Assembly: GCA_918797485.1 (NCBI GenBank)
Contig: CAKKNE010000002.1
Span: 4,740,501-4,804,500, forward strand
Direction of reading: 5' to 3'
DNA from: Pelagomonas calceolata
Lineage: Eukaryota; Sar; Pelagophyceae; Pelagomonadales; Pelagomonadaceae
DNA length: 64,000 bases
In this document: piece after piece, positions 13,844-44,254 of the stretch
Position numbering within the stretch: the first letter of the stretch is position 1
Layout of the letters: each line of letters begins with the position of its first letter
Translations under genes and position numbers: made by a program
The notes under the pieces: model-generated
What the model was told of the DNA's origin: nothing
The model's database searches: none
What the model saw: only the letters and a program-made list of their open reading frames with translations

Positions 13844-16800
13844 ATGGCGCAGCAAATACCCTTAACGTTTAGCGAGGTGCTCAACCTGCCGAGCCTGGGC
13901 GTCTCGGCGAACGCGATAAAATTCGGCGTACGCGACCTGAGTGAATAATGACCTTCCCGCCCGCGCCGCGCCGCCTTAGCTGTTTCCCCGTATTATCGAT
14001 CCGAACGCCCCGCGCGCGCCGCGCCGTTTCGCACCGTCGCGCGCGAAACCCCCGCGGAACGCCCACGCCTCGTTTCCTCACACAGTCCTGCGCCATGGAG
14101 TCCGACGCCTTCGTGAGCGTCTGCGACGGCTCGTCCGGCCAGCCCCAGGTTTTTATTGTGGACCTCAAGAACGGCAACCAGGTCATGAAGCGGCCGATGT
14201 CTGCTGAAGCCGCGATCATGAACCCGGTGAGCAAGATCCTGGCCTTGCGGGCGGGCCAACAACTACAAATCTTCAATCTGGAGTTAAGAGCCAAGATGAA
14301 GAGCCACCAGATGCCCGAGGCCGTCGTCTTCTGGCGCTGGGTCTCGCCGTCGACGATCGCGCTGGTCACACCGACCGCGGTCTTCCATTGGTCGACCGAG
14401 GGGTCCTCAGCACCCTCAAAAGTCTTCGACCGCCATGCGCAGCTCGGCGAGGGCACGCAAGTCATCAATTATCAAGTAAGCCCGGACGAGAAGTGGTGCC
14501 TCCTCATGGGCATCAGTCAAGGCGGCGCCGGCGTTATTAAAGGAGCGATGCAGTTGTATTCCAGAGACAAGTCGGTCTCGCAGACCTTGCAAGGCCATGC
14601 CGGCTGCTTCCACACCATGTCCGTGCCCGGTCGAACGGACAAGGCCCAGGTCCTCTGTTTCCAGGAGAAGAAGGAAGGCCAGCCCGCGAAGCTCTTCGTC
14701 ATGGAAGTTGGTCGAGATGCGTCGGCCGGCGCGGCGTTCCGACTGGCCCCAGTGCCCATCCCGGTGCCGGGCGACGCGCAGAACGACTTCCCCGTGTCTA
14801 TGTGAGTTGCAGTGTCCGTGACGCTTACGCCATCGCCGCGCGTCGTCTCCGTCAGACGAGGTCGTTCCGAGAGGACGCGGTCACGTCGATGGCGTCTTGA
14901 GACCGCGCCGCCGCGACGGCGTCGACGCGATGCCACGTCGACGCGGCCGTATCGAGGGAGCTGCAGCATCGTAACATCGCACACACAGGCTCGCCTCGCC
15001 GAAGCACGACATCCTCTACATGGTGTCGAAGATGGGCTACCTCTACTTGTTCGACTGTCTGAGCGGCAAGGCCTTATGTAGGGCTAGAATCACGACGGAC
15101 ACCGTCTTCGTCACGTGCCCTCAAACCTCCACCGGAGGCATTCTGGGCGTCACCGCGAGAAAAGGCCAATTATTACAAGTGTCGGTCAACGAACAGACGC
15201 TCGTGCCGTACGTCGTCTCGACGCTACGAGACACGCAATTGGGAATAGCGTTAGCCGGAAGACTAGGCTTACCAGGAGCCGACGACTTGTACGCGCAGGA
15301 GTTCCAGCGCCAGCTCGCCGCTGGTGATGTCTCTGGTGCCGCAAAAACAGCGGCAGACTCGCCCAACGGCATGCTGAGAACGGCAGAAACCATCCAAAGG
15401 TTCCAGGGTTTACCAGGACAGCCGGGCCAGCCCCAGCCCGTCTTCCAGTACTTCCACCTGTTACTAGAGAGAGGCAAGCTCAATTCCTTGGAGTCGATGG
15501 AGCTTGCTAAGCCCGTCATCGCGCAGGGGCGCACGCAGTTCCTCGAGAAGTGGCTCACGGAGGACAAGTTGGAGTGCTCGGAGCAGCTCGGTGATTTAGT
15601 AGTACAATCGGATGTCAATATGGCTCTCTCAGTATACTTGAGAGCCAATGTCCCCGAGAAGGCCGTGAATTGCTTCTTGCAACGGGGCGAGTACGACAAG
15701 ATCGCGGCGTATGCCGCGAAGGTCGGCTACCGCTGCGATTATGGAGTTATGCTCGGCAACCTAGCCAGGCAGAACCCCGCTGGCGCGCTAGATTTTGCGA
15801 AACAACTTAGTGCGGGTTCATTGGTGGATCCGAACGCCGTGGTAGAAATCTTCATGGGCCTGAACCGCATCCAGGAGACGACGGCGTTTCTGTTGGAAGC
15901 TTTGAAAGGTAACAAGCCCGAAGAGGGCTACCTCCAGACCAAATTGTTAGAAATCAACTTACGAGGCGGCTCCCCACAAGTGGCCGATGCCATTCTCCAG
16001 AACGCCATGTTCACGCACTACGACCGCCAGTACGTCGCGAAGTTGTGCGAGAGCTGTGGGTTGTCTCAAAGGGCTTTAGAACACTACACGGACACGGACG
16101 ACATCAAACGGTCACTGCTCGCGATGTGCAGCAACCCGCAGCAGTTGAATCCCGAATTTGTCCTGTCCTACTTCGGTTCGCTGTCTCCTGAAGCCTCATT
16201 GGACTGTCTTCGCGAATTATTACAGCGCAACATGCGGGGCAACATGCAGATCGTTACCCAGGTCGCCGCGAAATACAACGAGCAGATCGGGGCCGAGCCG
16301 CTGGTCGAGCTGTTCGAGGGCTTCAAATGCTACGAAGGGTTGTTTTATTATTTAGGACAGATCGTGAACTTTTCTCAAGATGCTTTAGTGCATTTCAAGT
16401 ACATCGAGGCGGCGGCGAAGTGCCAGCAGTTCAAGGAGGTCCGTTGTCCGGTGTCCTGCCTACGCCATCGTCGCGTCGACTGCGTGGAGGCGGACGCGAG
16501 GGCACGCCATCGACGCGATACACACGCAGGTTGAGCGCGTCTGCCGCGATAGTACCGTGTACGACCCCGAGACGGTGAAGCAGTTCCTGATGGACGCCAA
16601 ACTGCCCGACCCGAGACCGTTGATCCACGTCTGCGATAGACATGATTTTGTGGAAGAAATGACGTCGTATTTGCACAGCAACCAGCTCCAGAAGTACATT
16701 GAGGTCTACTGCAACAAAGTCAGTCCCCAGAAGACGCCGTTAGTCGTGGGCAAACTCCTAGATCTCGACGCGAACGAGGACTTCGTGCGCGGGTTACTCA

Positions 16801-19481
16801 ACTCCGTAGGACATGCGTGTCCCGTCGAGGAGCTCGTGGAGCAGGTCGAGCGTAGGAACCGACTGAGGTTGTTACAACCGTGGCTGGAGGCGAGAATCGC
16901 CACGGGCAACCAGGAGGTGGGCACGCACAATGCTATTGGCAAGATATATGTTACACTTAACAGGGACCCCGTATCATTTTTAACAAACGACCAGTGGTAC
17001 GACCCGGCCGTGCTCGGGAAGTACTGCGAGAAGCTGGATCCGTCGCTCGCATTTATCGCGTATAAGCGGGCGGGTGGGGCCTGCGACCAGGATTTGATTC
17101 GCGTTACTACTGCTAATGGGTTGTTCAAGGACCAGGCTCGGTATCTCGTCGAGAAGCAGGACCTGGAGCTGTGGGCCACCGTGTTGACGCCGCCGGACGA
17201 AGAGCAGCCCGGGGATACCTCGGAACAGAACCGTCGCTCTCTGATCGACCAGGTCGTGCAGACGGCGCTGCCGGAGACGCGGGACCCCGACCACGTGTCT
17301 ACTACCGTGAAAGCCTTCATGGCCGCGGACTTACCTCATGAGCTCATTGAGTTACTTGAGAGAATAGTGTTACAGGGTAGCGACTTCAGTGAAAATAAAA
17401 ATTTGCAGAATTTGTTGATTTTAACCGCTATAAAAGCGGACAAGGAGCGCGTCATGGAGTACATCAACCGCCTGGACAACTTCGACGGGCCGGAGATCGC
17501 GAAGATCGCGATTAGCGACCAGTACGGCATGTACGAAGAAGGTTTTGTAATATATACAAAGTTCGCCAAGGCCGCGGCCAAGCCGGATGAGGCCACCGAG
17601 CTGAACGTTTTAGCGATGGGCGTGCTTGTTGGTGATCTGAAGGCCATGGAGCGCGCCGCCGAGTTTGCCGAAAGGGCCGACGACAAGGCCGTGTGGTCTC
17701 GGCTGGCCAAGGCGCAACTCGCTGAAGGGTTACTGGCTCCGTCAATAGCTTCTTACTTGAAGGCCGACGACCACAAGGACTGGCCCGAGGTCGTGTCTGC
17801 CGCGGAAGGTTCCGATAGCTATGAGGAGCTCGTTCCTTATCTAGTGATGGCTAGAACCCATGTCAAGGAAGCCCAACTCGACACGACCTTGATCTACGCC
17901 TACGCCAAAGCGAACAAGCTCGGCGAGCTCGAAGAGTTCATCAGTGCGCCGAACGTGGCTCGCATCGACGACGTCGGCGAGCGCTGCTTCAACGAGCAGA
18001 TGTTCTCGGCCGCCAAGTTGTTATTTGCGTCGATCAACAACAACGCGAAGCTTGCGCTGTGTTTGGTGAATCTCGAGCAGTACCGCGAAGCTGTCGACGC
18101 TGCGCATAAGGCCAACAGTGTTTCTACCTGGAAGGAGGTCAATCGCGTCTGCGTTCGAGTGGGCGAGTTCAAGCTCGCTAGGATCGCGGGCCTGCAGATC
18201 ATCGTGCACCCGGATCACTTAGAAGAGCTCACTTCACTCTACGAGCGTTCAGGCGCCACTGATGAACTCATAGAATTGATGGAGCAAGGATTAGGGTTGG
18301 ATCAAGCCCATTCGGGCGTGTTCACGGAGCTCGGCGTCCTCTACTCGAAGTACGTCCCGGAAAAGCTCATGGAGCACATCAAGATCTTCTGGAGTCGCAT
18401 GAACGCGCCCAAGGTCATGAAGGCCTGCGAGAAGGCGTTGCTCTGGGACGAGGCCGTCTTCCTGCTCAAGGAAGATGAACAATATGATAGCGCCGTGAAG
18501 ACGATGATCGCGCATCCGTCCGCGTTCTCCCATGATCTGTTCCTGGATTGCGCGCAGAAGGTGCGGAACGCCGAGGTCTACTACAAGGCCATCGCGTTCT
18601 ACGTGGAACAGCAGCCGCTGCAGCTCAACAGGCTATTGCAGGTCTTGACGCCGAATCTAGATCACTCTAGGGTCACGCATCAACTGAGAAAACTTGAGAA
18701 TTTACCTTTGGCCCTACCTTACTTGAGGGACGTCCAGAAGGAAAATCTGACGGCCGTCAACGACGCCGTGAACGAGCTCTGCGTCGACGATGAAGATTAC
18801 GACGCTCTCCGGTCGTCGATCAACGACTTCGACAACTTCGATCATATTGCTTTGGCCCAGAAGGTCGAGAAGCATGAGCTGCTCGAGTTTCGACGCATCG
18901 CGGCCACGATCTACAAGAAGCACAAGCGCTGGGAGAAGAGTATACAGTTGTCCAAAGCTGATAAGATGTACAAGGACGCGATCGACACGTGTTCAGCGTC
19001 GGGCGACCCGGCCCTCGCGGAAGATTTGTTGAGGTTCTTCGTCGATGTGTGCGACAAGGAGTGCTTCTGCGCCACACTCTATACGTGCTACAAGATCGTA
19101 ACTCCCGACGTGGCCCTGGAGCTGGCCTGGCGGTCGGATTACGTGGACTTTGCGATGCCCTATGTTATACAATATGCGAGACACCTGCACGATACGATCG
19201 CGGAGCTCGAGAAGCGCACGGCACCGAAGGAGGAGCCCACCGAGTCGGAGCAGGCCCAGGCCGCCGCGGCGGCCATGTACGGCGACCCGGCCATGGGCAT
19301 GGCCGGCGCGCCGCTCCAGATCGGCTACCAGGACCCGTCGATGGGCTACGCGGACCCGTCGCAGATGTACAACGCGGGCATGAACGGCGGCATGGCGCCG
19401 CCAATGCCTGGTACCATGCCTGGTATGCCTCCACAAATGCCGCCGCAGGGCATGTACCCGGGCCAGATGCCGCAATACTAG
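13844..19481 (+). CDS. CLTC: Clathrin heavy chain, four exons
   Basis: Exons are 13844-13927, 14086-14801, 14989-16438 and 16530-19481, giving 1733 residues, the usual clathrin length. Exon 1 (MAQQIPLTFSEVLNLPSLGV) is short; splicing at GTACGC (13928) to TCCTGCGCC restores the conserved first propeller blade (MESDAF for the MESDKF of animals). Exon 2 ends in phase 2 and joins to ASPKHDILYMVSK. Exon 4 resumes at VERVCRDSTVYDPE. The N-terminal propeller includes MNPVSKILALRAG and FWRWVSPSTIALVT; the rest is helical clathrin legs with the FYVEQQPLQLN and YKKHKRWEKSIQLSK segments. The tail is Met/Pro/Gly-rich, where trimerisation and uncoating motifs lie in other species. It forms coats for endocytic and trans-Golgi vesicles. 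Introns 2 and 3 are introner-like. Confidence 0.95.
13928..14085 (+). other. Clathrin intron 1 (158 bp)
   Basis: Begins GTACGC and ends CACACAG, in phase 0. Position is fixed by the protein: IKFG joins SCAMESD, matching the spacing in other clathrins. An alternative donor 13 bp downstream (GTGAAT, 13941) would break the frame. The repeated introner core is not obvious here. Confidence 0.75.
14802..14988 (+). mobile_element. Introner-like clathrin intron 2 (187 bp)
   Basis: Donor GTGAGT, acceptor CACACACAG, phase 2. Contains TTACGCCATCGCCGCG at 14825 and, inverted, GTCGATGGCGTC at 14885. The stretch after the first motif (CGTCTCC.TCAGACGAGG) also occurs in anoctamin intron 2, so the two are copies of one element rather than independent introns. 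Confidence 0.75.
16439..16529 (+). mobile_element. Introner-like clathrin intron 3 (91 bp)
   Basis: Donor GTCCGT, acceptor CACACGCAG, phase 0; GT follows both splice junctions (GAG/GTCC and CAG/GTTG). Carries CTACGCCATCGTCGCG and a second copy, CACGCCATCGACGCG, just before the acceptor. Confidence 0.75.
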
Positions 19482-19800
19482 ACACGCGCCTTCCCTCTCC
19501 CCGTCCCCTCCCCCGCTTCGTCGTAAGCATCTATAGGCGCTATTGTTCTTACTCGAGGCTAGAGTTCCAGACGACTTCCAGACGCGTCTCGCGCAAATCT
19601 CGAAAGATCTAGGGTGAAGCCCTACTACCGCCGTAGTACCGGATTACTAGTAATCCGAGTCCCGGGCCGAGTCGATTGCGCCGTCACGTGACGGTGGAGA
19701 CTCGGACGCCTGAGCATAGAGCTATGACCCCGGAGCTATGACGTCCAGTCACTACGGTCCCCTCAGGACGCCCTCGACGCGCACCAAGACCACACAACCC
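19482..19800. other. Tail-to-tail intergenic region
   Basis: 319 bp between the clathrin stop and the stop of the convergent secreted-protein gene. It has short self-similar CCGGATTACTAGTAATCCG, a 19-bp inverted repeat at about 19639-19657 that could form a hairpin. No gene seen. Confidence 0.5.
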
Positions 19801-20358
19801 TTACTCATCTTCATCAGGTAAATGAACTTCGACGGCCACGCGAGGCCTTCCACTATCATCCCGCAGCTCCAAGCGATGGCCGTGCGGGATCGCCCGGCTC
19901 GATTGACCGCCCGGGCCGAAGGGCACGACCGGCGCGTCGTCGTGGTGCTTCAATTCAATGACTGAATTACTTTCGAGCATCGGGTTCGAAAACGTGATCC
20001 CATAGGGCTGCTCGATGAACCGACTCGGAATGATGTGAAACCGCACGCGCCACTTCATGTCCGCGCTCCGGACCACGAACGAATCGCGGAACCGCACGAA
20101 CCGGCCCGCTTCCTCGTCCGGCCCGAGTACCGCACAGAGCGTCTCGGACATGTCCCACGTCGGTTCTGGATGCTCCATGCCCTGGTTGCCCTCGTTGCCC
20201 AAGTAGTAGAAGGCCAAATCCTCGTCCCCAATGTTGGAAACGATGATCTTGTGGTGTTTATCGACGCGAAAGTCCCGTGCCAATTCGATGTCCGCGTGGC
20301 TGGCGTGGATGTGGTCGTCGGCCGCCGCGAGGGCTGCGAGGAGGAGTATCCGCCGCAT
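19801..20358 (-). CDS. Secreted protein of unknown function
   Basis: 185 residues from the ATG at 20358, preferred to upstream non-ATG codons because it yields a short signal peptide (MRRILLLAALAAADDH). The mature part has no cysteines and alternates beta-like stretches (HHKIIVSNIGDEDLAFYYLG, KWRVRFHIIPSRF) with acidic loops, ending in an acidic tail (LPDEDE). It looks like a small beta-rich extracellular or lumenal domain. I recognise no family. The upstream region overlaps the 3' side of the neighbouring minus-strand gene by less than 200 bp, so transcription units are close. Confidence 0.55.
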   Translation of the reverse strand: MRRILLLAALAAADDHIHASHADIELARDFRVDKHHKIIVSNIGDEDLAFYYLGNEGNQGMEHPEPTWDMSETLCAVLGPDEEAGRFVRFRDSFVVRSADMKWRVRFHIIPSRFIEQPYGITFSNPMLESNSVIELKHHDDAPVVPFGPGGQSSRAIPHGHRLELRDDSGRPRVAVEVHLPDEDE

Positions 20359-20549
20359 GGCTTCGTTGCAACACGTATCGCTGGGCAGCGTGCAGCAATG
20401 CGATAGCGTACGGTGGGCTGCCCCCAAAAAAAAGTCGAGCTCGACGCGTGCGTGCGGGTTCTTGAAGAACGCTCCAAAGGTCCCAACCCCTTACGCCGTC
20501 GCCGCGCCACGCATCAACTTCCACAAATATATACAACACATCCTTACCC

Positions 20550-21482: not shown

Positions 21483-21756
21483 GCCTTGTCTTGTGTCGCC
21501 CCGGGGGCTTCTCCGGCGTGGCCCGAGCGCGTGGTGCTCTCCAGAGAGCTCTGGATCGAGAAGTTGTCGGACTTGTGCTCAAGCCCGATGGCTGGCTGAG
21601 GACCTGTACTGATATGTATCTACCGATCGAAGCGCCCGCGCATGCGGCGTAGGCGATTGCCCACGTCTAGTATCGACCCTAGACGCCCTCGGGGAGACCT
21701 CAGGACCACGAATCGACAGGATTCCATCGACGCGCCCGCCATGGCGGGATCGTCAT

Positions 21757-22113: not shown

Positions 22114-22142
22114 GCTACTAACAGATTACACCACAATAAAAA

Positions 22143-25100
22143 TCAAGCCAGCCCGTCGTGCAACAACAACCGCAGGATCGCCCCGACGACGGCCGACCCG
22201 AGCACGTCCAGCTGCGGCCGCTCGGCCTTGTCCACGAGCAAAGCGTCGAAGTGCTCCCTCAGAGCAGCAACCAACGCCCCGACGCGCGCGTGCGCCGCGA
22301 AGGAGACCCAACCATCCACCACAATCGACCCCTGCAACGGCCGCGGCTCGACCCTGCCCCCGAAGAGCAGGACCGCGTACGGCGCCGCCTCGCCGCAGTC
22401 GCGTATGGACACGCGGTGCGTCTCGACGCACTCGCCGTAGACGGCCCAGGGCGACGGCCACGAGCGCTCCGCGTAGCACGACGACGTCGGGTGTAAGAAA
22501 GCTCTTTCGAGCTGCCCCGTCGGCGTCCTTCTGAGAAACCGCAGTTCCCGCGCTTGGGCGTCCATGGCAATGTTCCCCTCCGACGTCTCGGCGTATTTCT
22601 GCGAGGGCTTCTCGATCTTCACTAAACGCGGATACAGCGCGCCGGCGACGACCGCGCGTGCGACGCGCCAGAGCGCCGGTCCCGACAGTTGCGTGGCGTA
22701 CGACCCGAAGCCGCGGTCCGAGAGCGCGCCGTCCAACTGTTTGACTAGGGACAACGCGTCCTCCAAGGGGTCCGCGCTCAAGCCGCGCTGCGCGCACCAG
22801 TCTCGTAAAGCCCGTTTCCGCGCCCAGCCCCGCTGTGACCTGTGCGCAAATCGACCAGTGAGTCGGGTGCAGTCGCGTCGATGGCGTGGAGGTCGACGCA
22901 GTGAGTCGGGTGCACGCCACCGAGCAGGCATCGCGTCGATGGCGTGGAAGGCACCGTGACGTGTTGATGCACAGGTTGGGACGAAGCCTCGGCATAGGCC
23001 CGCAACGCCAACGCATCTAGGGCGTGGTCCGACCGGCCGCAGCCGTGCCGCTCCCGCAACTCCTGGCGGAATTTTGCTGCTAAAGGCCTATCATCAGGAT
23101 GCGACCGCCACGGGCTTCTCCCCCCTAGACCGGCCGCGACCCGCAACGCCTCGTCGCGCACGCCCAGGGACGCCCCGAGCACCAGGAGCTTGCCTAGTCT
23201 CGGCGCGCACGGGAGGTGGGCTAAATGACGGCCCAATGGAGTTAACTTCTTTGACGAGACAGCACCCAAGTCCGAGAGCTCCCGCAACGCTTGCTGTAAC
23301 GTATCAGGTGAAGGAGGATCGAGCAGCGATGGAGCAAAGGTCTCGACGTCGAGGTCCATCGACAGGACTTGCAGACACAACCCATCCAAGCCGACCCTAT
23401 GGATCTCCGGTGTGGTGTGCTCCCCAAAGCCCTCGAAGAAGGACTTGGGACACAGCCGGTAGCACCGGCCCCGCCGCACGCGGCCCGCCCGACCTTTCCT
23501 TTGCTTCGCGGCATCCTGGCGCACCCACACCTCCTTCAGACACGGTAACGACCTAGAAGCGTCGTAGCCCGTCTCCTTGCATCGCAACGTGTCCACCACC
23601 GCCGTCACGTCGGGTATGGTGATACTGGTCTCAGCCACATTGGTAGCAACAACTATTTTTGTTTTACCTTTAGGTGCCGTATCGAAGGCTCTACGTTGGT
23701 CCTTTGCGGGTAGGGAACCATGTAAAGGTAGGGGGTACAATGTAGGGTCTCGCTCCAGTATTCTACAGATCTGTGTTATTTCTAGAGCACCACTCACGAA
23801 GACCAATACCGCACCGGTTGAATCTCTCTGAAATTCATCCAGAGCGATAGCTCGACAGGCGTCGGCGACGAACTGCACATCCAATCGTTGCGGCGTCGCC
23901 GTCCAGGCCTCCTTTTCTCTACGAGTCATCTCTTCGTCCTGATCTAGTAACCTCTTGACATCATTCAAATAACTCACGTCGACGGGATGCGCGAATCCTG
24001 GTATAGATAGGACGGGACACCTGCCCTTATATAGCTGAGGATTGAGATCGGCGAAGTACCGCGAGAACCGACTCGTGTCCATCGTTGCCGACATCAGGAT
24101 GACTCTCAGGGAAGGTCGCTTTTGTAGTAGTGGCCTTAGTAAAGCTAACAACAAATCGGCATCCAGGTGCCGTTCGTGCACCTCATCGACAATCAGGTGT
24201 GTTATGCCTTGTATATTAGTGTCGCTCCTTAGACGTTGTAGTAACACCCCAGTCGTGCAGAACAGCAAATGGGAGCCCATCGACACTTCCCCTCTTACTG
24301 CTACTCCGACCGTACTACCGACGTGTTCGCCCCGTTCTTCAGCGACTCGGGACGCGACACCCACCGCAGCCACTCGCCTTGGTTGGGCCACCACTATCTT
24401 GATCGGTTCAGTCGCATTATCTAATAAAAATTGGGGCACCTGGGTCGTCTTACCACATCCGGTACCGCCCTCAATTAACATGACCTGGTACTTGGATACC
24501 GTATCGATAACGTTGCTAGCCTCTTTGTGCGCGGGCAGCGTCTTCCGTTGTAGTGTGATGGATGTCCTAGGCTGCGATGGCGGTGGCGGGCCATTCGAAG
24601 GCTGCGACCACCAGTCGGGGCCCCGTCGACGCATGCGCCGCGGCGGTCGCGGTGCGACGACGGGCGCCGCCTTCGGTTGAACGACGGGCGGCGGCGGCGG
24701 CACATCCACAGGATTCTTAGCAGCCTCGACGAGATCGAAGAGCATGGGCTCGCCCACCAAGGAGAAGGCGAGCGTCGCCCACGCCGCATGTGCTTTTTGT
24801 GACGCGCCCTTCTTGAGGACCATGGCCGGTATCGACGGGTACGTTGATGGTACCAGCAAGCACGCGTCCCCCATGGTCATCACCGAGCCCTGGTCCTCTT
24901 TTACAGCAGTAACGTCGAGCGTCGCCTCGAGGGCCTCGATTTCATCAGTCTCACCACCTTCCCCCGCTTCGAAGGACGCGTCCGGCCTTGCGAGTCTAGC
25001 GCATTGGGTCCACCTACTACAAAAGTCGCCCTCAACCGCAAAAGAAGCTACTTTGCGAGAAACAACAACGTCCAGATTCGCGCCGCTCTTCGGGTCGAAC

Positions 25101-26307
25101 GTCTCCGGTAAATCGCCCTCGTCCACATGGAGACATAAATGAGCCAACGCCGCCTCGGTAGCTTGCAAGGCATCATTTGTTGATGTCGTAGCCACGGCCT
25201 CGACGGCCTGGCCCGGCCGAAAGCCTAGACCAACTAAGTGTTGCGCCGCGTCCCTCTTCGCACCTTCGAGGTCTGCCAATTTTTGGAGGTCGTTCGAACT
25301 TCCACCGTCGTCCTCCTTTGTTCGCTGTAAACCTAACGCCTCCACGACGGCGCGCCTTACGGAAGGCGCCATATAAACTCGAGCGTCGGGGTTGGCCCGC
25401 TTCCGCGCCTCCCGCGCGTGCGTCCTTTGGTTCCGGACGGCCTCCTTGGCGCGCCTCGCCCTATCGGCCTCGGCCCTCGACGCGTGGGCGCGGTCCATCG
25501 TCGGCACTACTATAGAAGGCTTCTCCGGCGCGGCGGCGGCGGCCTCCTCGAGATTATTCTTCGAGCCCTTGCGCGGGAGCTTCGCCGGCTCCTTCTTCGC
25601 CGTGGCCGCGCCTGCGTGGAATCAAATTTCGGGCGCCCCACGCCGTCGACGCGATGTTGTCCCCGTGGCAGCGTCGGCTCGATGGCGTGGAGGTCACGAA
25701 GGTCCACGCTATGATTTCCACACAGGCCCGCGCCCATGGCGAGCCACGTGCTCCGGTAGGGCTCCGGTAATTTCCGCTCCAGAGGGAGACTCCCTTGCGT
25801 CTGCTTCAGAGCTAATAGCGCAGCATTCTCCTTCGCCACACTTTCGGAAGGAAACGCCTCGGCGGGGCAGAAGGCCAGGTCGTGCTCGGCGCCCCGCCTC
25901 TTGGGATCGGGCACGATACACCTGGAACGGTGCTTGCCCGGCGGCGCGGGTTTGGCCGGGTGCCATCTAGGTTTCGGCCGCTTCTCGCGCTGGCACCACT
26001 CACCCAGCATCTGGGAGGGCAACTTCTCGTGCGTTTTCAAGGTCAAACCCTTCACTTCCTTGGGACCCTTGTCCGTGAGCTTCGACGCGATGCGCTGGTC
26101 CCGACTCCCTTTGCCGACCCATTTTTGCACCTCGCCGTCCCATCGGAAGCCGTGGTCGGGCTTGCCGTCCTTTTTCGTGGGGCGTTCCGGCCTTATGCCG
26201 CACTCGCACCGTCTTTCACACTCGCAGCGTTTTTGTACTGGCTCCTTGCCCTTGCCCTTCTTCTTCTTGTCGGCCTTCGAGGGCGGCGGGGGCTTGTCGC
26301 GACCCAT
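22143..26307 (-). CDS. DEAH-box RNA helicase, DHX29/DHX57-like, three exons
   Basis: Exons 26307-25722, 25611-about 22973 and 22832-22143. Intron 1 splices CTGT to GC in phase 1, joining two frames that look like separate genes into one. Exon 1 has a Cys-rich start (KRCECERRCECG) and a segment typical of DHX29/57 (LPSQMLGEWCQ, then LPEPYRSTWLAM). Exon 2 holds the helicase core: GGTGCGKTTQVPQFLLDN (motif I), VAQPRRVAAVG (Ia), VDEVHERHLDADLLL (DEVH, motif II), LMSATMD (III), VLVFVSG (IV), VATNVAETSITIP (V) and QRKGRAGRVRRGRCYRL (VI), then the winged-helix/ratchet part. Exon 3 is the OB-like tail. Family members unwind RNA in translation initiation or decay. The 3' donor of intron 2 is ambiguous (22972 or 22960, both in phase). 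Confidence 0.88.
22833..22972 (-). mobile_element. Introner-like helicase intron 2 (about 140 bp), double core
   Basis: On the minus strand it starts GTGCATCAAC (or GTCACG at 22960) and ends GCGCACAGGTCACAG, in phase 0. It carries CCACGCCATCGACGCGA twice, 58 bp apart, each followed by a CACCCGACTCACTG-like tail. The ends are imperfect inverted repeats (CCTGTGCATCAAC against CCTGTGCGCAAATCGACC). Confidence 0.7.
25612..25721 (-). mobile_element. Introner-like helicase intron 1 (110 bp) with terminal inverted repeats
   Basis: Minus-strand donor GTGGAA, acceptor CCACGCAG. The ends are inverted copies: GTGGAAATCA at the start and TGATTCCAC at the end. Inside, CTCCACGCCATCGAGCCG and CGTCGACGGCGTGG form a second inverted pair. 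Removal restores one long frame across the helicase. Confidence 0.8.
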
Positions 26308-27823: not shown

Positions 27824-30800
27824 TTAGAGACTCGTCAGCTCCGCCGCGCGCGGGCTGTACCCCTCATCCTCCATCACTTTCTTGCGACTCCGCACCGAAT
27901 CGGAAATCTCCTGCTTCCGTTCTTTGCCATAATTTTCATAACCAGGATAGTCCAAGTAAACCACGGAGTCATCTTTATCAAATATGGTCACGTCCGGCGC
28001 GTCCCCATCGTCGGCGTCCGCGTTCGGGACTTCTATTTGGTCGTCCGCGGCACAAAAGATCAGCTTCTTCTCGACGAACTCCTGCCTATCTATTTGTATT
28101 TGGACATCCCCAGGAACATCTTCAATCACCAACGCCGCCAACTGCTTCGCCACCACCATCCCGTGGTACAGGAAACAAAAGGTGATGATGCGGTGCGCGT
28201 TGTTCCAATGTGTGAGGAACTCGCCCGTATATGTAATAATGATACTATTCGTAAAGACCGCGATATACGACAGCAGTTCGATGATGTCCGCCCAGGAGCC
28301 AATGTCCTCGGCGTTTTGTGGCCAAGGGCGTCTGCTGACCACCGAGATGTTCCAGGCGTCCACCCGGATCTGGGCGTAGGCGTTTATTAACGCGAGCATC
28401 GGCGCTAGAGGTAATGCCGCGACGAATAACACGGTGTAACCATATATAAGTACCAAATCTCTGTAGTCTCCAAAAGTACCTAACATATGATGGTATTCGT
28501 CCAGCTCCAGCTCCCGTTCGGCAGGCGAGATGTCCCGAGAAACAACCTCCTCCTCCTCGGGCGGCTCTTCGCCCAGCGCGGCGTACTCGTCGAGCCTCTC
28601 TTGCTTCGCCATCTCATCGAGTTCGGCCCTTCTTTGTTCTTGGATGCGGTCCTTCTTCCACCAGAAGTGGGGGATCATGATCTCCTTGACGTTGGCCAGC
28701 ACGACTTTCGAGATGAAGATAGCTTGTAATTGTTTATTCAATTCCGACATACAGGTGCCCTTGCAGCCATAGCTCCCGGGAAACGGCTGCAATATGGCGC
28801 GGTTCGCTTGGAGTTGCTTGAAGAAGGCTATATATATATAGGAGAAGAAGGAGTTGATGCCCTGGAAGATGAAAACCTTCTCGGTTAATTTATCCGTAAA
28901 CTCGGTATCGGTCGCGTGGTTCTCGTAGCGATTCAAGAACAGAGCGAGTTCATTAAACACGTTCTCCAAAGCGAATATTTGTGCAGCTTGGGCTAGCGAC
29001 ACAAGCGTGTTGCCGATCTCGCCGGACATGTCAACACCGAGCCAGCGCGGGATGCCGTAATTCTTGACGCATTTGGGAGAACCAGAGAATTGCCTCTGGT
29101 TCTTCCTGCAGTTCCAGTGGCGCGTGTTCAGCAAGTTATTTCTCACCGCTAAGATAGCCTTCAAAAAAAATGTAGCTATAACAAGGGCCATCACCGCCGT
29201 AGAAGCCACGAGAATGACGGTCCACGCGATTAAATTCCTTCTAGCCTTGATGTTCGGCGGGAAGTATTTGATTTCCTCGCCGTCGACGGGCGAGTTGATA
29301 TCTATAACTAAGTCACTCTCAAGAAAATCAGGTCTTTCTTCTTCGATCTCCTCGATGCCCACCATGCCCCACTCCATGGCATACCTGCTTTGCTTTCTCT
29401 TCCACGTTTCCAAGAACACAGTAGCCCATACTGACATGACGACGCAAAAAAACGGTATGACTGGCGAATTCACGCCGCCCGTGAGACACGCCGCGAGCCA
29501 CACGATCACCCCAATAATCGCCGCGACGCCGGCCTGCTCCGTGTAGTGGCCCAGGAACACGAAATACAGGCCGATCTTCTCGCCAAAATAATCCTTGATC
29601 TTCACGAACGGCTGGTCCCACCTGCGGCGGTGTCGCGTGACGCGGGGCGTCTCCCCGTGGTCGTCTCCACGAGAGATGATCGAAGTCGGGCGCGACGCGA
29701 GGACGCCGCGAGACGTACGGCCAGCTCCAATACACGAGCCACTTCGCCTGGCAGGCCTGCAGTTCGCTTCGATCGTGCAGCGGGAACGCCGCCAGGATGA
29801 TTTCAGCTTTGAGCAATTTCTCGAGCACCAATCCGGCGCCGTTTTCGTTCGGGTCGCACTTCAGGATGCTCATGATCAACTTCACGCGATCGACCGACCG
29901 GAACATGCTTGACGTCCGAGGGTACTTCTGATATAATGATTGCAATTCCGGATTCGAGCGGTACTCCCCGTAGATATACTCGTAGTACCTGCGCGTGATA
30001 TGCATCGAGTCGCGATCTCGCCCGAACCCACGGCCTCGTCTGATGGAGACGAGTCGCGGCGATGGCGTAAGGAGGGATATATAGGGCGCCGCTGCAAACG
30101 CGTACGGGCACTGGTCCTCGGTGTCGGTGATGGCCGTCTCCATCTGGAAGCCCTTGTAGGTCCAGCCGTTCTTGCGCGGGTAGACGTCGTACTCGTCGGG
30201 GTTCAGGGGGTCCGGCTGGCCATCTAGCAGTCGTTGTTTCACATTTCTTTCATCTAAACGAAACTTCATATTCAACCGATCCGCTTCCTCCTCGAGTCGC
30301 TCGCGACTAGCTCGGATCTTGATGAAGACCTTGTCGAACTTCCTGGACTTGTACTGCTCCGTCTCCAGGTCGGCGTTCTCCAGCGCTGAGACAATATTAC
30401 GCATACTGTTTTTTCTTTGTAGGTCATCTACGAGCTTATGACCCTCGTCCTTAATAGAAGTAACAATAACAAAGTCGTAGTTCCAGTTCTGGCCCTCCTC
30501 GCGACTCTGGAACTTGTCCTTGACGAACCGGTACCTGTGTGTGATGTATCGAGTCGCGATCTCGCCCGAAACGCGCTCAAAATCCAAAATGAGACCACCC
30601 ACGTCCATCATTCCTGGAGACGAGTCGCGTCGATGGCGTGAAGGCGCCGCAGCACCGCGGGACGCCGGGTCCGTACTCCGGGAACTCGTCGATCTGGGCA
30701 GTAGCCATGTGTAACAACTGCTTGAGGCAGAACATCACGAACGCAATGTTCGCGAAGATCGTGATGCCCGGCGTGAATCGCGACACGATGGTGTACTCGA

Positions 30801-32820: not shown

Positions 32821-32845
32821 GTTAAACTTGTACACACTATCACAC

Positions 32846-33697: not shown

Positions 33698-33752
33698 GTT
33701 TGACAACAGGGGCCGATAAATGCGGTAGTTATACTTACAGGATAGGCGCGGA

Positions 33753-35878: not shown

Positions 35879-35967
35879 ATGGCATATACCTATTCCCGTC
35901 GCCGCCCCACCCACTAATCACCTTCATTATGTCGTTAGTCAGTGGAGTTAGCAGGGAGGGGGAAGCG

Positions 35968-37866: not shown

Positions 37867-38489
37867 CTTTTCTGCTGGTGCTGGTCGTTAGCGCTGTTGC
37901 GCTTTCGGCTGATGGGTCGTTGCTTTGTTGGATGGCCTCGGCGCCGTTGCACGGGCGCCCTGCTGTTGAACTGGCTGCCTGCTCTGCTCTCGGTGCTAGT
38001 CTCAGAGGCGGATATGGGGCTGCCTGCTCGGCCGACGATCGGTGCGGGCGTGCGTGCGTGTTTGCGTGCGTGCGTTGGGTAGCCTGGTCGCCTCGCTCAA
38101 TGGTGGGAACAGGATAAAGCCACTCTGCCAGAGCATGAAGAGCATTTTCGTCCAGCTTCACAGGTACTCGTGTTTCGGCCCGCCGCGGCGTCGTGGCGGG
38201 CCAGAGACTTCCTCGGACGCGTACGTCGGTATTCGTGCTAGTGTCTTTACAGGCCGCTAGCTACGAGTTTTGGATCAAACTTTGCGCCGCGCGCCTCGCT
38301 AGGCGCCACAACCACGCTCCGCAGCGCCTGCAAGCACCGCGACAGCGCACTTGTCCCAGACTTTTGAAGCCGTGCGCCGCCGCGCCCCAAAAAAAGCATT
38401 CCAAAGACCAGCAGCTTTAAGCACAGCGCAAGACGCCAAGACGCCGCGCGGCACAGATAGCTTCTTAAGCCAGCGAATAAACAGCAAAG
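37867..38489. promoter_or_regulatory. Head-to-head intergenic region (ABCG / p47)
   Basis: 623 bp with a GCGTGCGTGCGTGT-type simple run near 38050-38072 and the CTAG element at 38234. No gene seen. Confidence 0.5.
38234..38267 (+). promoter_or_regulatory. CTAG element, copy 3
   Basis: TGCTAGTGTCTTTAC, 5 bp, then GCTAGCTACGAG. One extra T compared with the other copies; it lies 223 bp upstream of the p47 ATG. Confidence 0.5.
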
Positions 38490-39245
38490 ATGCCCATCGC
38501 CACGCTGTTTGACGACAAGAAGGAAGACGACGACGAGCAGGACGACCGGAACGAGCTCTACACCGGCGGGAATCGGCGGGGCGGCGGCGGGTCCGGTCTC
38601 GCCGTGATTGGCGGCGACGACGACCCCGATGCCGATGCCGTAACGCGCATGTTCCGCCAGGCCCAGCGCAACGCGGCTGGTAATGGAGAGGGCCCCGAGG
38701 AAGGCGCCGATCAAGTGAAAGTTACTGTTTACTCGAACGGCTTTGTGGTCGGCGACGGCCCGTTTCGGCCCTCTGATGGCTCTGAGGAGAACGAGGCGTT
38801 TTTGCGCGATGTTGGGAGAGGTATCGTGCCGCGAGAGTTGGAAGATAGAGCTGGCGCCGGCGCCGTGAATTTGGAACTCGTCGACAAGCGCGGCGAGAGT
38901 TACGAGGCACCGGCTTATACTGCCTTCTCAGGAGGCGGCCAGACGCTAGCCTCCACAAACACGTCGGGTATCTTTTCGGAAGCTTCATGCGAAAAACCAG
39001 CTCTTGATGACGGGAAGCCGAAAACGACGCTACAAGTGCGCTTGTCAAACGGGAAGAGAGCTAGAGTCACCCTGAACCTCGACCACACGGTGGCGCAGCT
39101 CGACGCGTTGATCCGGGCGGACCACGGCGCCGAAGGCAGCTACCAATTGTTAGCAGGCTTCCCGCCCGCGCCGCTCGCGGACCCCGCGGCCTCCGTCGAG
39201 GCGGCCGGGCTGAAGGGCGCCTCCGTGACGCAGAAGGCGGCCTAG
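38490..39245 (+). CDS. p47/Shp1-like Cdc48 adaptor (SEP + UBX)
   Basis: 251 residues. After an acidic linker, residues 75-140 form a SEP domain (VTVYSNGFVVGDGPFRP, then FLRDVGRGIVPREL, LELVDKRGESY). Residues 170-250 form a UBX domain (TTLQVRLSNGKRARVTLNLD, LLAGFPPAPLADP), where the FPPAP loop corresponds to the Cdc48-binding FPR loop with Arg replaced. The ubiquitin-binding UBA domain at the N-terminus of animal p47 (about 370 residues) is missing, giving the compact form seen in some protists. Family members recruit Cdc48/p97 for membrane fusion and phosphatase regulation. Start ATG 38490 is preceded by an A-rich AACAGCAAAG. Confidence 0.88.
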   Translation: MPIATLFDDKKEDDDEQDDRNELYTGGNRRGGGGSGLAVIGGDDDPDADAVTRMFRQAQRNAAGNGEGPEEGADQVKVTVYSNGFVVGDGPFRPSDGSEENEAFLRDVGRGIVPRELEDRAGAGAVNLELVDKRGESYEAPAYTAFSGGGQTLASTNTSGIFSEASCEKPALDDGKPKTTLQVRLSNGKRARVTLNLDHTVAQLDALIRADHGAEGSYQLLAGFPPAPLADPAASVEAAGLKGASVTQKAA

Positions 39246-39329
39246 TTGTGTTCCTCCCACTTTAAAACTTCCTCTCGGTAGTCGTTTGCCATCGGCGCGT
39301 GGCCTCGTGGGATCTCTAGGTGTCGTCAC

Positions 39330-39425
39330 AGTCGCGTCAGTTGTCGCGTCGATGGCGTCGAGAGGCGGGCCCTGGCAGACGACGGCGCGAATTTCGGGTA
39401 GCCCGAGCACGCCATCGCCGCGTAT
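39330..39425. repeat. Introner-like sequence outside any coding exon
   Basis: TTGTCGCGTCGATGGCGTCG at 39341 and, inverted, GCACGCCATCGCCGCG at 39409 frame a 50-bp middle that includes GCGCGAATTTCGGG, resembling the helicase intron 1 interior. It lies between the p47 stop and the stop of the convergent ankyrin gene, so it is either an intron in a 3' UTR or an unspliced insertion. Confidence 0.6.
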
Positions 39426-39437
39426 CACAATAATGAT

Positions 39438-40400
39438 TTACCCGAGCCCCTCGTAGCACGTTTTGCCAGAAGCGTTCACGATGCGGTTGTCCGCGCCCTT
39501 CGTGATGAGGTACTCGCCGAGCTGCTCGAACCCGAACGCAAAACAAAAATGGAGGCACGTGTTGCCCCGCAGGTTCGCCGCGTTCACGTCCGCGCCGCGC
39601 CGCAGCGCCGCCTTGACGACGCGCTTGTGGCCGTTCTGCGCGCCTATTATTGCGATCGTATTGCCATGAACGTCTCGACTATCCGCCGGCACGCCCCGTA
39701 CCAACAACCGTTCAATATCCGGCACGCGGTTGTGCCTCGCGAACGAGAAGACGTCGGCCACGTCGGCATCGGAATGAGTCGGTGCTGGTGCTTGTTGCTG
39801 CACGGGGGGCCGCGCGCTCGCGAAGCGGTCCGCCGCTCTTGTAAATTCGTCTTGCACATATAGCGACGACGCCGGCCCGGGCGGCGCGGGCCTCCAGTCT
39901 TCGACGTCGGCGCCGGGCGGCGCGTAGGTTGGTGGAGGCGCTCGCGGCGCGCCGCCGAGCGCCAGCGGCGGCACGCGTGGCGCGGCGCCGTGCGGCGGCC
40001 CTCGCGGCGGCGGCCCGCGCGGCGCGGCGCCGTGCGGCGGGGGCCCTCGCGGCGGTCGCGGCGCGGCGCTGGGCGGGCTCTGGCGCGGCGAGTACCAGTT
40101 GCTCGATCCGTCGCTATTGTTACTCCGCGCGGTGTCGTACCAGACGTTCGATGCGTCGCTGCCGGCGCTCCGGGCCGTGTCCTGCCAGGCGGCCGGCGGC
40201 GACGGCGAGCCGGTGGTCGAGGCCGCCGACTCGCGCGGCGTGTACCAGCGGTCGTCGTCGAGGCGAGCCAGTGTTGCTGATCTGGTTTGTGGCTGCCCCT
40301 CTTTTAGGGCTCTATCCGCAGTAGCGGTCGAAGCGATGCCTGTTATGGGTGCCTTTGGAGAGCTGGCGGCATGGGAGCTGCGCCTAGCGACGAATGGCAC
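39438..40400 (-). CDS. Proline-rich ankyrin-repeat protein, start uncertain
   Basis: About 320 residues. No ATG occurs anywhere in the frame: it is open to a TAG near 40487 and the given start is a GTG at 40400. An upstream exon or a non-ATG start is therefore needed. Residues 45-100 contain three degenerate 'WY..R' repeats (DDRWYTPRES, NVWYDTARSN, NWYSPRQS). Residues 105-165 are a Pro/Gly/Arg low-complexity run (RPPRGPPPHGAAPRG). Residues 210-320 are three ankyrin repeats (DVFSFARHNRVPDIERLLVR, AIIGAQNGHKRVVKAALRRG, TCLHFCFAFGFEQLGEYL). Likely a scaffold protein; function unknown. Confidence 0.6.
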   Translation of the reverse strand: MPFVARRSSHAASSPKAPITGIASTATADRALKEGQPQTRSATLARLDDDRWYTPRESAASTTGSPSPPAAWQDTARSAGSDASNVWYDTARSNNSDGSSNWYSPRQSPPSAAPRPPRGPPPHGAAPRGPPPRGPPHGAAPRVPPLALGGAPRAPPPTYAPPGADVEDWRPAPPGPASSLYVQDEFTRAADRFASARPPVQQQAPAPTHSDADVADVFSFARHNRVPDIERLLVRGVPADSRDVHGNTIAIIGAQNGHKRVVKAALRRGADVNAANLRGNTCLHFCFAFGFEQLGEYLITKGADNRIVNASGKTCYEGLG

Positions 40401-40692
40401 AAATGAGTGCTCTCGGAGCCTGTTATGCGGCAGAGTGCCAGTGTAACTTCGCAGGCTCGCAGCTATCGTGCGGGTCGGACGCTTGACTGGCGGGCGCTAT
40501 GTTTCCGTGGCGCCCGGACAATGGATTGTGGACAGAGTTCAAGCGCTAGCGTCTGCAAGCCACTAGCCAGCCTTTCCAGCCTCCATCTTTGTCAAGTCCT
40601 TCTTGCTCGCGCAGGACAGGGGGTGCACGTCGACGCAGTTTCGTGGCTGATAAGTGATTGAACAGCTTCGCTGGTCCATTTTTGCAATCGTA

Positions 40693-41132
40693 ATGGCGGA
40701 CGACGACGAAGTAGTGTGCCCTCTCCCGGCTTTGAGGAAGGTCAGGCGCCGCGTCCGGACAGGGGGGGACGGCGCGCACGCATGAAAACGCTGCGCGTCT
40801 CGGCCAGAGATGGGTGGACCGCGAAACCGACCATTTCCGCAGTTCGCTGCACGCCTCGCGCCTGACCGCAAAAGAGCCGATCACACACGCCCATCCGCAG
40901 GCCTGCGAGCCGCGCTGCGCGGACGTCTTCAAGCACTACTTGGCCTGCGCTGATCGCATCGAGCAGAAGGGCGCGGGTGCGGGCGCCGCGTCCTTAAACA
41001 CAAAACCGCCATCGTACGCCATCGCCGCGACCGCACCACAACCCCGCAGGCGACTGCGAGCCCTACTACTTCGACTGGCTCAAGTGCATAGACAAGTGCG
41101 CGATGCCGCACATCATGCAGAAGCTCAAGTAG
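40693..41132 (+). CDS. UQCRH: Mitochondrial bc1 complex hinge protein (QCR6/UQCRH), three exons
   Basis: A 68-residue protein assembled from three tiny exons: 40693-40740 (MADDDEVVCPLPALRK), 40901-40976 (ACEPRCADVFKHYLACADRI plus EQKGA) and 41050-41132 (GDCEPYYFDWLKCIDKC, AMPHIMQKLK). The four-cysteine twin pattern (C-x3-C-x8-C...C-x9-C-x3-C-type) and the ends DWLKCIDKC and LK-stop match the hinge subunit that docks cytochrome c1 in respiratory complex III. Splice sites fit in phase: AAG/GTCAGG...CCGCAG/GCC, then G/GTGCGG...CCGCAG/GC. Without splicing the gene is invisible. The acidic start is typical of the family. The stop is 17 bp from that of the convergent methyltransferase. Confidence 0.85.
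40741..40900 (+). other. QCR6 intron 1 (160 bp)
   Basis: GTCAGG to CATCCGCAG, phase 0. The position is set by protein homology: K16 is followed directly by ACEPRC. An alternative acceptor at 40807 would insert 31 residues not found in the family. No introner core visible. Confidence 0.7.
40977..41049 (+). mobile_element. Introner-like QCR6 intron 2 (73 bp)
   Basis: GTGCGG to CCCCGCAG, phase 1. Carries CGTACGCCATCGCCGCGACC. Very short; only one half of the usual inverted pair is clear. Confidence 0.7.
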
Positions 41133-41148
41133 AATTCTTTAAATATTA

Positions 41149-42585
41149 TTAGCATATCGCGCACGTACTGTTTGAAGATTTCTTCGCCTTCCCGAAGACC
41201 AGCGGTGGGAGGTCGTCCCGCCTTCGAGATCGCCTCTTGACCGGAGATGACGGCGGCGGCGCGGCGATGCCGCGCGTGAAGGCAAGACCGGCATTTCCAG
41301 GTTTCAACACCTTCACCCACAGAAATAAATGATGCCCTCGTTGCACCGACCACGACGTCGGGTACCGGTCCGCGAACGACCTATTAGCCTCCAGTTGCCG
41401 GAACGGAAAGGGCTGCCCCGGCAGGCGCCAGACCCGCCGCAGATCCAAGTACGTCAACAATCTACAACCCTCCTTGCACGCGTCGAGCAACCGCGAGAAC
41501 TCGCCGAACGTGTCGGCCGGCACCTCGGTCTCGAGCATGACGATGGACCTGCGCGGACATCGTCGGTTGACCTTCTTGCGCGTCGCGTCGATGGCGTCTG
41601 GTGGAGAGCCGGTCGCCGCGATGGCGTCTTCGCGGATTTACGGCGCGACCTCCACGCCCTCGACGCGACACACACCGGTTGATTTCCACGCCGCTCCGGA
41701 CGCGTCGCCGACGTCGCGCGTCCGCATCAGGTTGCCGTGCTCTATTATGAGAGTGCGGTCGACACTTGTGACCTCGATGGAGGAACCGGGCTCCCGCCTC
41801 GTTATATGGGCGTCGCAGTCGTCGCGCGCCGCCAGCGCTAGCAGTGCTCGCTCCGCGACGTGGAAGCGCGCGAGCGACAATTCCACACCATACACTCTTT
41901 TCAGGTTCGGGAACTGCAGAAACGCCTGCAATGCTACTTTTCCTGTACCACACCCTAAGTCATACACTGAAGAAGCCCGGGCCGCGTCCAGGTGTCGCGC
42001 ATCTAAAGCTTTATGGACGCCTCGCGGCAGCAACTCGCCGTACAACAACGAGCCCCGATCTTCGGTCGCCCGCCTTCGATCGTCGTCCGTCACACAAACA
42101 TGACCTAGCGTCTTGTGGCCCGTCTCCTGCGTCCGCCCGCCGTAGCAGTCGTGTAAAACACTTTGAGCCTTGGCAAACGCTAGGGAAAGGTCCTCAGCAA
42201 AGGTCCAGGGCTCGTCGCGCGCGTTTCGGAGTACCGGTAGGCCCTCCGGTTCCTTCGTTTCTTCGTCACAAGTACCTCTATCCACAATATAGAACGCGGT
42301 TCTCAACATCAGGAGCCACCGCCTCGCTCCCGAGTGGCGGAATTCGACGCAGTGCTTGCCTGATGATCTATGGTACTGGGCCACCAGGCCCTCGGACCAC
42401 TCGCGGTTTTCTAGGAGCACCGATACTCTGCACCCAACTAATCCAGCGTTGGACCAGGCCGTCTTGGCTCGCAGGTGTCTTCTTAGTCCTTCTAAGTCGG
42501 CCCACTCCGTGCCGTCCTCGTGGCAGACGAATTTGGTGCCCGTTCGCGGCGGGGGCTTGGTCTCGGGTTGATCTGAGCTGGTCAT
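41149..42585 (-). CDS. SAM-dependent methyltransferase with Tudor-like domain, two exons
   Basis: Exons 42585-41690 and 41548-41149, phase 2, 431 residues. Residues 45-100 look Tudor-like (GCRVSVLLENREWSEGLVAQ, KHCVEFRHSGARRWLLML). Residues 190-330 form a class I SAM fold: VYDLGCGTGKVALQAFLQFP (motif I), VYGVELSLARFHVAERAL, then IIEHGNLMRTRDVGDA. Splicing GC to G gives DASGAASIVMLETEV, which restores the next strand, and the chain continues through LLDACKEGCRLLTYLDLRRV. The motif order recalls DOT1-type histone methyltransferases, and a Tudor-like module would suit chromatin, but the DOT1 lysine-channel residues are not clear. The tail is basic with KRRSRRRDD and ends CAIC-stop, a possible CaaX prenylation box. 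Confidence 0.75.
41549..41689 (-). mobile_element. Introner-like methyltransferase intron (141 bp)
   Basis: Minus strand: GTGGAAATCA start (the same end as helicase intron 1), acceptor GTCCGCGCAG. Contains three cores: GTCGCGTCGAGGGCGTGG (reverse orientation), ACGCCATCGCGGCG and ACGCCATCGACGCGACGCG (forward). Splicing here restores the methyltransferase frame. Confidence 0.78.
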
Positions 42586-43159
42586 GGTGTGATTCCGTCG
42601 CCCGGGACGCGGCGCGTCTGGCGCGCGGCCGGCGGGAGCTAGTTATTTAGAGCGCTGCTCGGCCCGGATGCCGGGGTAGGCAGTATTTGGGCCCTCACAG
42701 GGGCGCGGCGCGGGATCCGGGAGCTCTTTGGCAGCTCTTGCTCCCGAGCGCTGAGTTGGTTTCGGCCGATTCAGGCGCAACAGCTGCGGCCCTAAGATTC
42801 TAGACCGTACCTTATCGATGCTGAGAGGTGGTCGGGCGGCTCTTCGGCGCGCCGGGTGCCAGCGTGCCCCAGAGTCCCAGGTGCTTTTGCCGTCTCTTGT
42901 CCGGCCGCGCTGAGTCTGAGCCGGGCGCTTGATCGCTCTTGTCCCAGGGATTTCGCGGCCGAGGAGGCTTCCCTCATACGAGTAAAGTGCCAATTTGCTT
43001 CGCTTCTTGGCGCTAGTACGGCCGGCAGAGGCTGCTTGGCTGATGCTCTCGCAGCTTTTAGCGGTCGAAGGCTAGCGCAAAAAGCAACAAGAAGAACGTG
43101 CGCGGCAGCATTTTCAGCCATTATCACGCCTGCGACGCGATTTGGCACGGTCTGAGGTG
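42586..43159. promoter_or_regulatory. Head-to-head intergenic region
   Basis: 574 bp between the methyltransferase and PurU starts. GCTAGCGC at 43071 lies 89 bp upstream of the PurU ATG. No gene seen. Confidence 0.5.
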
Positions 43160-43878
43160 ATGGCGAGCGTTTCTGAAACCCAGGCCATCTTATTGGTGCA
43201 CGGGCCGGATCGTAAAGGCATCGTCGCCGCGTTCTCGCAGACGCTCTTTGGCCATGGATGCGGCATCGTCTCCTCCGAGCAGCATACCGATGCGGAATCG
43301 AGCGTGTTCTATCAACGGATCGTGTTTGATGCGGCGGCATTACACACGGACCGCGTGAGCCTCGAGCGCGGCATCGACGAGGTGGCTAGTCGCTTAGGCA
43401 TGACGTGCGAGGTGCGCTGGCCCAAGCCGAAGCGAGTTGCCATCTTCGTAGCGCCCCCGCGCCCGACCGTCTCGATGGCGCACCACGAACGCCGCCGCAC
43501 GCAGGTCTCCAAGTACGCCCACTGCCTCTGGGAATTGCTCCTCAGGCACGACGCCGGCGAGCTGCCGGGCGTCGAGATTGTTCAGATCGTGTCGAATCAC
43601 GAAGATTTGCGGCACGTCGCGGAGCATTTTTCTGTGCCCTACGCCGTGTTCAAGGTGACGAAGGACACGAAAAGAGCGGTCGCGGCCAGTGCGGAAACCA
43701 GGTACTACGCCATCGATGCGACGTCGTCCCTGCGCGATGGCGTAAAATAGCTCTAGTCGCACAGGTGGAGGACCAGGAGCTCGCGCTCCTCAAAGAAAAG
43801 CAGGTCGACCTCGTCGTCCTCGCTAGATATATGCAGATCATCACCGACGAGTTCTGCGACGCCTTCCCGCACCGCGTG

Positions 43879-43911
<33 letters not shown>

Positions 43912-44254
43912 ATTGGCTCGAAGCCGTACCACCGGGCGCACGCGCGCGGCGTGAAATTAGTCGGTGCGACGGCGCACTACGCGACGGCGGACCTCGACGA
44001 GGGTCCGATCATCGAGCAGGACTGCGCGCGCATCTCGCACAAGAACTCCATCGACGACCTGCTGCGCAAGGGCCGCGTCCTCGCCCGGCGCCGAATCAGG
44101 ATCTTGTGGGGGTCGCGGCGACGGCGTGGTGGGGGCTAGACGTTACGATGCCGCGCAGGTGCTCGAGAAAAACGTCCTCGTGACGGCCGTCCGCGCGCAC
44201 GTCGAGGACCGGATCATCGTGTACGAGAGCAAGTGTGTGGTCTTCGGGGAGTGA
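43160..44254 (+). CDS. purU: Formyltetrahydrofolate deformylase, three exons
   Basis: Exons 43160-43678, 43765-44076 and 44159-44254, all phase 0, 308 residues. Residues 5-85 are an ACT domain ([28 protein letters not shown]). The catalytic domain has the conserved [13 protein letters not shown], then after splicing [30 protein letters not shown], the [20 protein letters not shown] block with active-site His/Asn, [20 protein letters not shown] with catalytic Asp, and a last exon [19 protein letters not shown]. It hydrolyses 10-formyl-THF to formate and THF, balancing one-carbon units; in plants it is mitochondrial. No clear presequence is seen after the ATG at 43160. Both introns are introner-like, in opposite orientations. 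Confidence 0.93.
43679..43764 (+). mobile_element. Introner-like PurU intron 1 (86 bp), perfect 10-bp inverted repeat
   Basis: GTCGCG to TCGCACAG. TACGCCATCG at 43706-43715 and CGATGGCGTA at 43735-43744 are perfect inverted copies, 19 bp apart, extended by ATGCG / TGCG. This is the smallest clean example of the element's paired ends in the window. A more tempting donor at 43702 is out of phase; the one chosen aligns [12 protein letters not shown] with other PurU proteins. Confidence 0.78.
44077..44158 (+). mobile_element. Introner-like PurU intron 2 (82 bp), reverse orientation
   Basis: GTCCTC to CCGCGCAG. The core appears only as its reverse complement (GCGGCGACGGCGTGG). The flanks CGC/GTCCTCG and CAG/GTGCTCG are similar over seven bases, as a target-site duplication would be. 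Confidence 0.68.

Follow-up and report, generated by a model that had tools for sequence, protein, structure and literature searches.

Where spliceosomal introns come from has long been asked, and introners are the clearest source of them at the present day. Introner elements were reportedly described in Aureococcus anophagefferens by Huff et al. in 2016. Among DNA transposons with comparable traces, those of the hAT type have inverted ends with the consensus YARNG. MITEs of this type share the 8-bp duplication, the short non-autonomous element, and a symmetrical target tendency (nTnnnnAn) with the introners of Pelagomonas calceolata analyzed here, but the Pelagomonas ends start with CTGTG and not with YARNG, and the genome yielded no hAT transposon carrying them. 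The introners of A. anophagefferens and of Aureococcus sp. TARA_AOS_82 (Gozashti et al. 2022, PMC9860276) resemble ours in their pelagophyte host, short inverted-repeat elements, canonical splice sites, many genic copies, and both orientations, those of Aureococcus sp. also in an 8-bp target duplication. Compared by description, family 4 of Aureococcus sp. differs in carrying both splice sites and adding 12 nt, while in Pelagomonas the donor appears to come from the duplication and removal to be exact. In Symbiodinium microadriaticum, the 3' splice site likewise lies on the element, the 5' splice site is derived from the target duplication, and the ends are inverted, but the duplication is 4 bp long instead of the 8 bp of Pelagomonas (PMC9860276, Fig. 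2B).

For P. calceolata RCC100 itself, the main text of the genome paper published in 2022 (PMC9481584) reports 32.4 Mb in six chromosomes plus plastid and mitochondrial contigs of 90 kb and 39 kb, respectively, 16,667 genes with 0.45 introns per gene, and intron lengths peaking at about 210 bp, a peak equated there with the introner elements of Aureococcus anophagefferens. In outline, introners in Pelagomonas are already published; the phenomenon is known, and this genome is an unusually clear example of it. What is added here are the ends, the duplication, the donor rule, and the hairpin, which were not found in the literature searched; the main text of PMC9481584 does not describe inverted ends, a target duplication, or a donor rule.

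The stretch of DNA analyzed in this study (64,000 nucleotides, in the following called the window) is part of contig 2 of a genome of 32,445,274 bases in 8 contigs, which was searched as a whole. Ten introns bearing a shared core motif were delimited, two each in the genes for clathrin, a DHX helicase, an anoctamin, and PurU, and one each in those for QCR6 and a DOT1-like methyltransferase (Table 1). Going by the main text of PMC9481584, they are almost certainly the same introns, in the same genome, as the introner-like introns of P. calceolata RCC100. We consider it very probable that they are introners, i.e., short non-autonomous DNA-transposon-like elements whose insertion creates spliceosomal introns.

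Table 1. Introners and introner-like introns of the window, with the sequence expected after removal (a hyphen marks the junction; duplications as matching bases of 8).
Feature	Position in the window	Strand	Length and sequence features	After removal
Introner-like intron 1, clathrin heavy chain	14802..14988	+	187 nt, GTGAGT...CACACACAG; exact core at 14827, inverted copy near 14882	...NDFPVSM-LASPKHD..., gapless against clathrin 6yai
Introner-like intron 2, clathrin heavy chain	16439..16529	+	91 nt, two cores (16462, 16504)	FKE-VERVCR, gapless against PDB clathrin
Introner, DHX-type helicase	22840..22982	-	143 nt, two cores, element CTGTGCATCAA...GATTTGCGCACAG; target duplication GTCCCAAC/GTCACAGC, 6/8	frame restored through the helicase HA2/OB region
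Introner, same DHX-type helicase gene	25612..25733	-	122 nt as GC-AG, element CTGTGTGGAAATCA...TTGATTCCACGCAG; target duplication GCGCGGGC/GCGCGGCC, 7/8	frame restored by GC-AG removal
Introner-like intron, anoctamin gene	29989..30105	-	117 nt, exact core	EDQCP-YYEYIYGEYRSN
Introner-like intron, anoctamin gene	30535..30676	-	142 nt, exact core	DEFP-EYRFVKDKF
Probable introner-like intron (eleventh), ankyrin-repeat-like gene	39316..39441	-	two opposed cores, donor GTAAAT, 3' splice site uncertain	
Introner-like intron, QCR6	40977..41049	+	73 nt, exact core at 41016	IEQKGA-GDCEPYYFDWLKCIDKC
Introner, DOT1-like methyltransferase gene	41549..41701	-	153 nt, element CGGCGTGGAAATCAACC...GATGTCCGCGCAG; target duplication GTCCGGAG/GTCCATCG, 5/8	frame restored, ...DVGDA-SIVMLETEV...
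Introner 1, PurU	43679..43764	+	86 nt, donor GTCGCGGC, element CAGTGCGGAAACCA...GTCGCACAG	14-residue junction peptide, gapless against 3w7b
Introner 2, PurU	44077..44158	+	82 nt, minus-strand core variant ACGCCGTCGCCGCG; target duplication GTCCTCGC/GTGCTCGA, 6/8	13-residue junction peptide, gapless against 3w7b (formyltetrahydrofolate deformylase)

The first-pass annotation had proposed that splicing at GT...CAG exactly repairs each protein. Removal restored the frame in 10/10 cases, and with gapless homology across both clathrin and both PurU junctions the predicted repair holds up well. In QCR6, the match to cytochrome bc1 subunit 6 has a 2-residue gap beside the junction, and the spliced anoctamin protein revealed an Anoct_dimer match (residues 209-421); for the anoctamin, helicase, and methyltransferase junctions, the support is limited to the reading frame and to domain matches that are partial. 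As for the boundaries, CAG was present at the 3' end of all ten and a GT donor in nine, while one of the DHX introns (at 25.6 kb) would use GC if removal is exact; for some introns, the donor was picked among in-frame candidates.

The motif common to these unrelated genes is a core of 14 bases, ACGCCATCG[AC]CGCG, which was found 43 times in the window with up to two mismatches, compared to a mean of 4.75 and a maximum of 14 in shuffled sequence. A genome-wide search, which had been set as a check on the core, resulted in 1,899 + 1,747 = 3,646 exact matches versus 3 for the reversed pattern, so that the core is strongly over-represented at both scales and extends far beyond the few introns of the window. 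Allowing two mismatches, 14,097 matches were obtained versus a background of 869, i.e., about 13,000 above background. The pairing of the core with an inverted copy, also claimed at first pass, is seen in several of the window introns, not in all of them.

Alignment of 105 cores revealed a conserved stretch of only about 16 nt, and the core is therefore a part of the mobile unit and not the unit itself. A role of the core as terminal inverted repeat was likewise ruled out by this short common stretch and by its internal position in intact elements, where it commonly starts about 30 or 57 nt from the element end. It is one arm of an internal hairpin common to several introner types. Besides the intact elements, cores occur in introns that have other ends, as short tandem arrays, and at sites that lack coding sequence on at least one flank; the latter applies to 18 of 65 sampled cores in a codon-usage scan, which misplaced known boundaries and serves as a rough guide only. 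At three loci (L029, L030, and L051), local head-to-tail repeats of the core with a period of 14 or 20 bp are seen within introns or next to them. At three others (L032, L039, and the first core of L056), sense-strand cores precede apparent start codons by a short distance, which could reflect 5'-leader introns or a promoter-linked motif.

Inverted ends were first noticed on reading sampled core loci. The best-preserved subfamily is, by its sequence, a MITE-like element with inverted ends CTGTGTGGAAATCAA...TTGATTTCCACACAG of 15 bp and an 8-bp target duplication. With at most one mismatch, the end motif occurs 2,516 times in the genome (control: 2). From the contig-1 places listed, selected by one exact end, 85 unique elements with both ends were obtained. 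Their duplications match on average at 6.69 of 8 positions, with 82% reaching at least 6, while mismatched pairs average 3.04 and only 3.6% of them reach 6. At the ninth base on either side, agreement of the flanks drops to 32-38%. The empty site can be read letter by letter from the target duplications. Element lengths are mostly about 60-210 bp with a cluster at 202-206, and 37 long copies led to a consensus of 203 bases in which the core occupies positions 58-71 and the inverted copy positions 80-89. For this consensus together with the donor, RNA folding predicted a structure far more stable than shuffled sequences (z = -5.6) with the inverted ends paired. Apart from these, one 53-bp introner derivative (L130, 372-424) carries a perfect 8-bp duplication, ACCATGAC; it is shorter than a usual intron and may be near the lower limit for splicing.

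Within intact elements, the inverted arm diverges by 0.8% and the core by 3.7%, versus 5.9% at other interior positions. Such low divergence of the hairpin arms would also be expected if no mobile element were involved and these were old introns of the ordinary kind with the core as a common, conserved motif for splicing or regulation, and the mere 16 nt or so held in common outside intact elements point the same way. Ancient introns of unrelated genes should not, however, be similar over their full length of about 200 nt, as is the case here, nor end in inverted repeats flanked by target duplications, and we regard this explanation as extremely improbable. The proposal that introners spread through unrelated genes and are removed precisely is instead supported by the repeat counts, the inverted ends, the 8-bp duplications, and the frame restoration described below. 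Counting against the introner explanation, core copies far outnumber elements with intact ends. It is conceivable, if rather unlikely, that selection or mobility applies to the core hairpin as a module of its own, given its presence in introner types with differing ends, its abundance, its exact persistence in introns with eroded ends, and the low divergence of its arms. Such a module might act in splicing or transcription and so render insertions tolerable, and it might be swapped among introner families; the hairpin may also be simply old sequence held in common.

How an insertion may turn into an intron was read from 69 elements with a duplication of at least 6/8 and usable flanks, 58 of which had clear coding flanks. 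Codon usage was scored separately for each flank, and the two frames were chosen independently. Removal of one duplicate together with the element restored the frame in 58/58 (chance 1/3), while leaving both in place would result in a stop or shift in 53. On the coding strand, the upstream duplicate starts with GT in 44 and with GC in the remaining 14, with no other start. Using a slightly different flank filter, GY was present on the sense strand in 56/56 and on the antisense strand in 15/56, compared to a background of about 16%. Since the sense-strand duplication starts with GT or GC, the 5' splice site seems to be supplied by the target, and the acceptor CACACAG by the element end. A donor rule without exception in the sample separates the two contributions, i.e., the 3' splice site of the element and the 5' splice site of the target. 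The strand asymmetry is most simply explained by selection against insertions that cannot be spliced, to which an insertion preference would contribute at most modestly, and the contrast between sense and antisense GY makes selection on new introns measurable.

The GC fraction and the absence of any other start argue that GC donors are in use and that splicing further inside the element is not the rule here. In that mode, some GC-start members would be spliced at the GT inside the inverted end, between CTGT and GTGG, leaving 12 extra nucleotides in the mRNA. This site lies 12 nt inside the donor and hence is always in frame with the exact mode, as in the DHX intron at 25612..25733, the best-preserved copy of the window, and the mode has been reported for family 4 of Aureococcus sp. 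(PMC9860276). Were this mode widespread, nothing should constrain how the duplication begins, whereas GT or GC was present there in 58/58, and we consider the mode improbable even for part of the GC-start members. In four cases, the intronic duplicate has changed from GC to GT and in none the reverse, which is suggestive, though the cases are too few.

Taken as an introner mechanism, these features suggest that a transposase would act on the inverted ends, inserting the element and duplicating 8 bp of the gene. The upstream duplicate, provided that its sense strand begins with GT or GC, would then serve as 5' splice site and CACACAG at the right end of the element as 3' splice site, so that excision of one duplicate plus the element would give back exactly the original coding sequence. 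In the transcript, pairing of the inverted ends and of the internal core hairpin is predicted to draw the two splice sites near each other. Selection against insertions that lack GY on the sense strand would most likely account for the absence of such copies from coding sequence. With inverted repeats at its ends, the element should work in either orientation; among the 58, the core was oriented + in 25 and - in 25 and was missing in 8.

These equal orientations also bear on a spread via RNA, by which spliced introns would be reverse-spliced into other transcripts and copied back to DNA, as proposed for fungal introner-like elements. Such a route would directly give a strand-aware rule like the strict sense-strand GY (58/58), and the location of 58 of the 69 usable intact elements in coding sequence also speaks for it; but introns spread by reverse splicing would not end up in both orientations, and 8-bp duplications with 15-bp inverted ends are DNA-transposon signatures unexpected from it. 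We therefore judge the RNA route to be very unlikely compared to insertion of introners as DNA.

In the search for a mobiliser of the introners, no transposon with introner ends (CTGTGTGGAAATC) was found among the end matches listed. Models for MULE (PF10551) and PF13359 transposases had no match in the genome, with positive controls, and the P-element models PF21787 and PF12017 gave none either in the genome or in the control genomes. As to viral carriers, no exact introner end was present in viral contigs. The only hAT transposase detected in the genome belongs to a single-copy, intact-looking transposon of 3,651 bp on contig 4 (G000:C4:4499549-4503199; locus L159, 2550-6200), which displays an 8-bp duplication (TTGCTCGC) and 20-bp inverted ends (CAGGGCAGCAGAAGGGCAAG), both of them perfect, as well as an open transposase frame of 721 aa, and which is possibly a recent arrival. 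As the mobiliser it was ruled out, given its unrelated ends and single copy. No claim draws on a generic scan of the surroundings of all cores for ends and duplications, as it returned chance pairs at 16 of 300 random points.

Most of the window copies look like members that are older and eroded, or like relatives whose ends have diverged; the ends are clear in only two or three of them. Ends of the intact-subfamily kind were recognizable at 25.6 kb and 41.6 kb and variants of them at 22.9 kb and in PurU intron 1, the rest being eroded or different. The target duplications of the window copies match on average at 4.7/8, still above permutation (p = 0.0007). The exon following the intron starts with GT or GC in 10/10, compared to about 16% for GT plus GC in coding background, an excess part of which may reflect a general preference for an exon-initial G. 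Given these duplications and the erosion of most inverted ends, the recent spread suggested by the first-pass annotation finds no support for the window copies; it fares better genome-wide, where the young subfamily differs from its consensus by a mean of 4.7% (not counting subfamily-diagnostic sites) and nearest neighbours in a small sample were at most 97% identical, values that speak for activity in the moderately recent past. With more than 1,000 copies that have readable ends, and with both young and eroded copies, the genome offers a compact test case.

Two further features of the window were observed. A dispersed repeat, AT-richer and about 330 bp long, which contains an internal duplication of 152 bp, is present at 8915-9250 and 44509-44843, the two copies being about 89% identical, and has at least 9 matches in the genome. 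Finally, a long coding region at about 736-6609 is abundant in FG-type repeats and appears nucleoporin-like.
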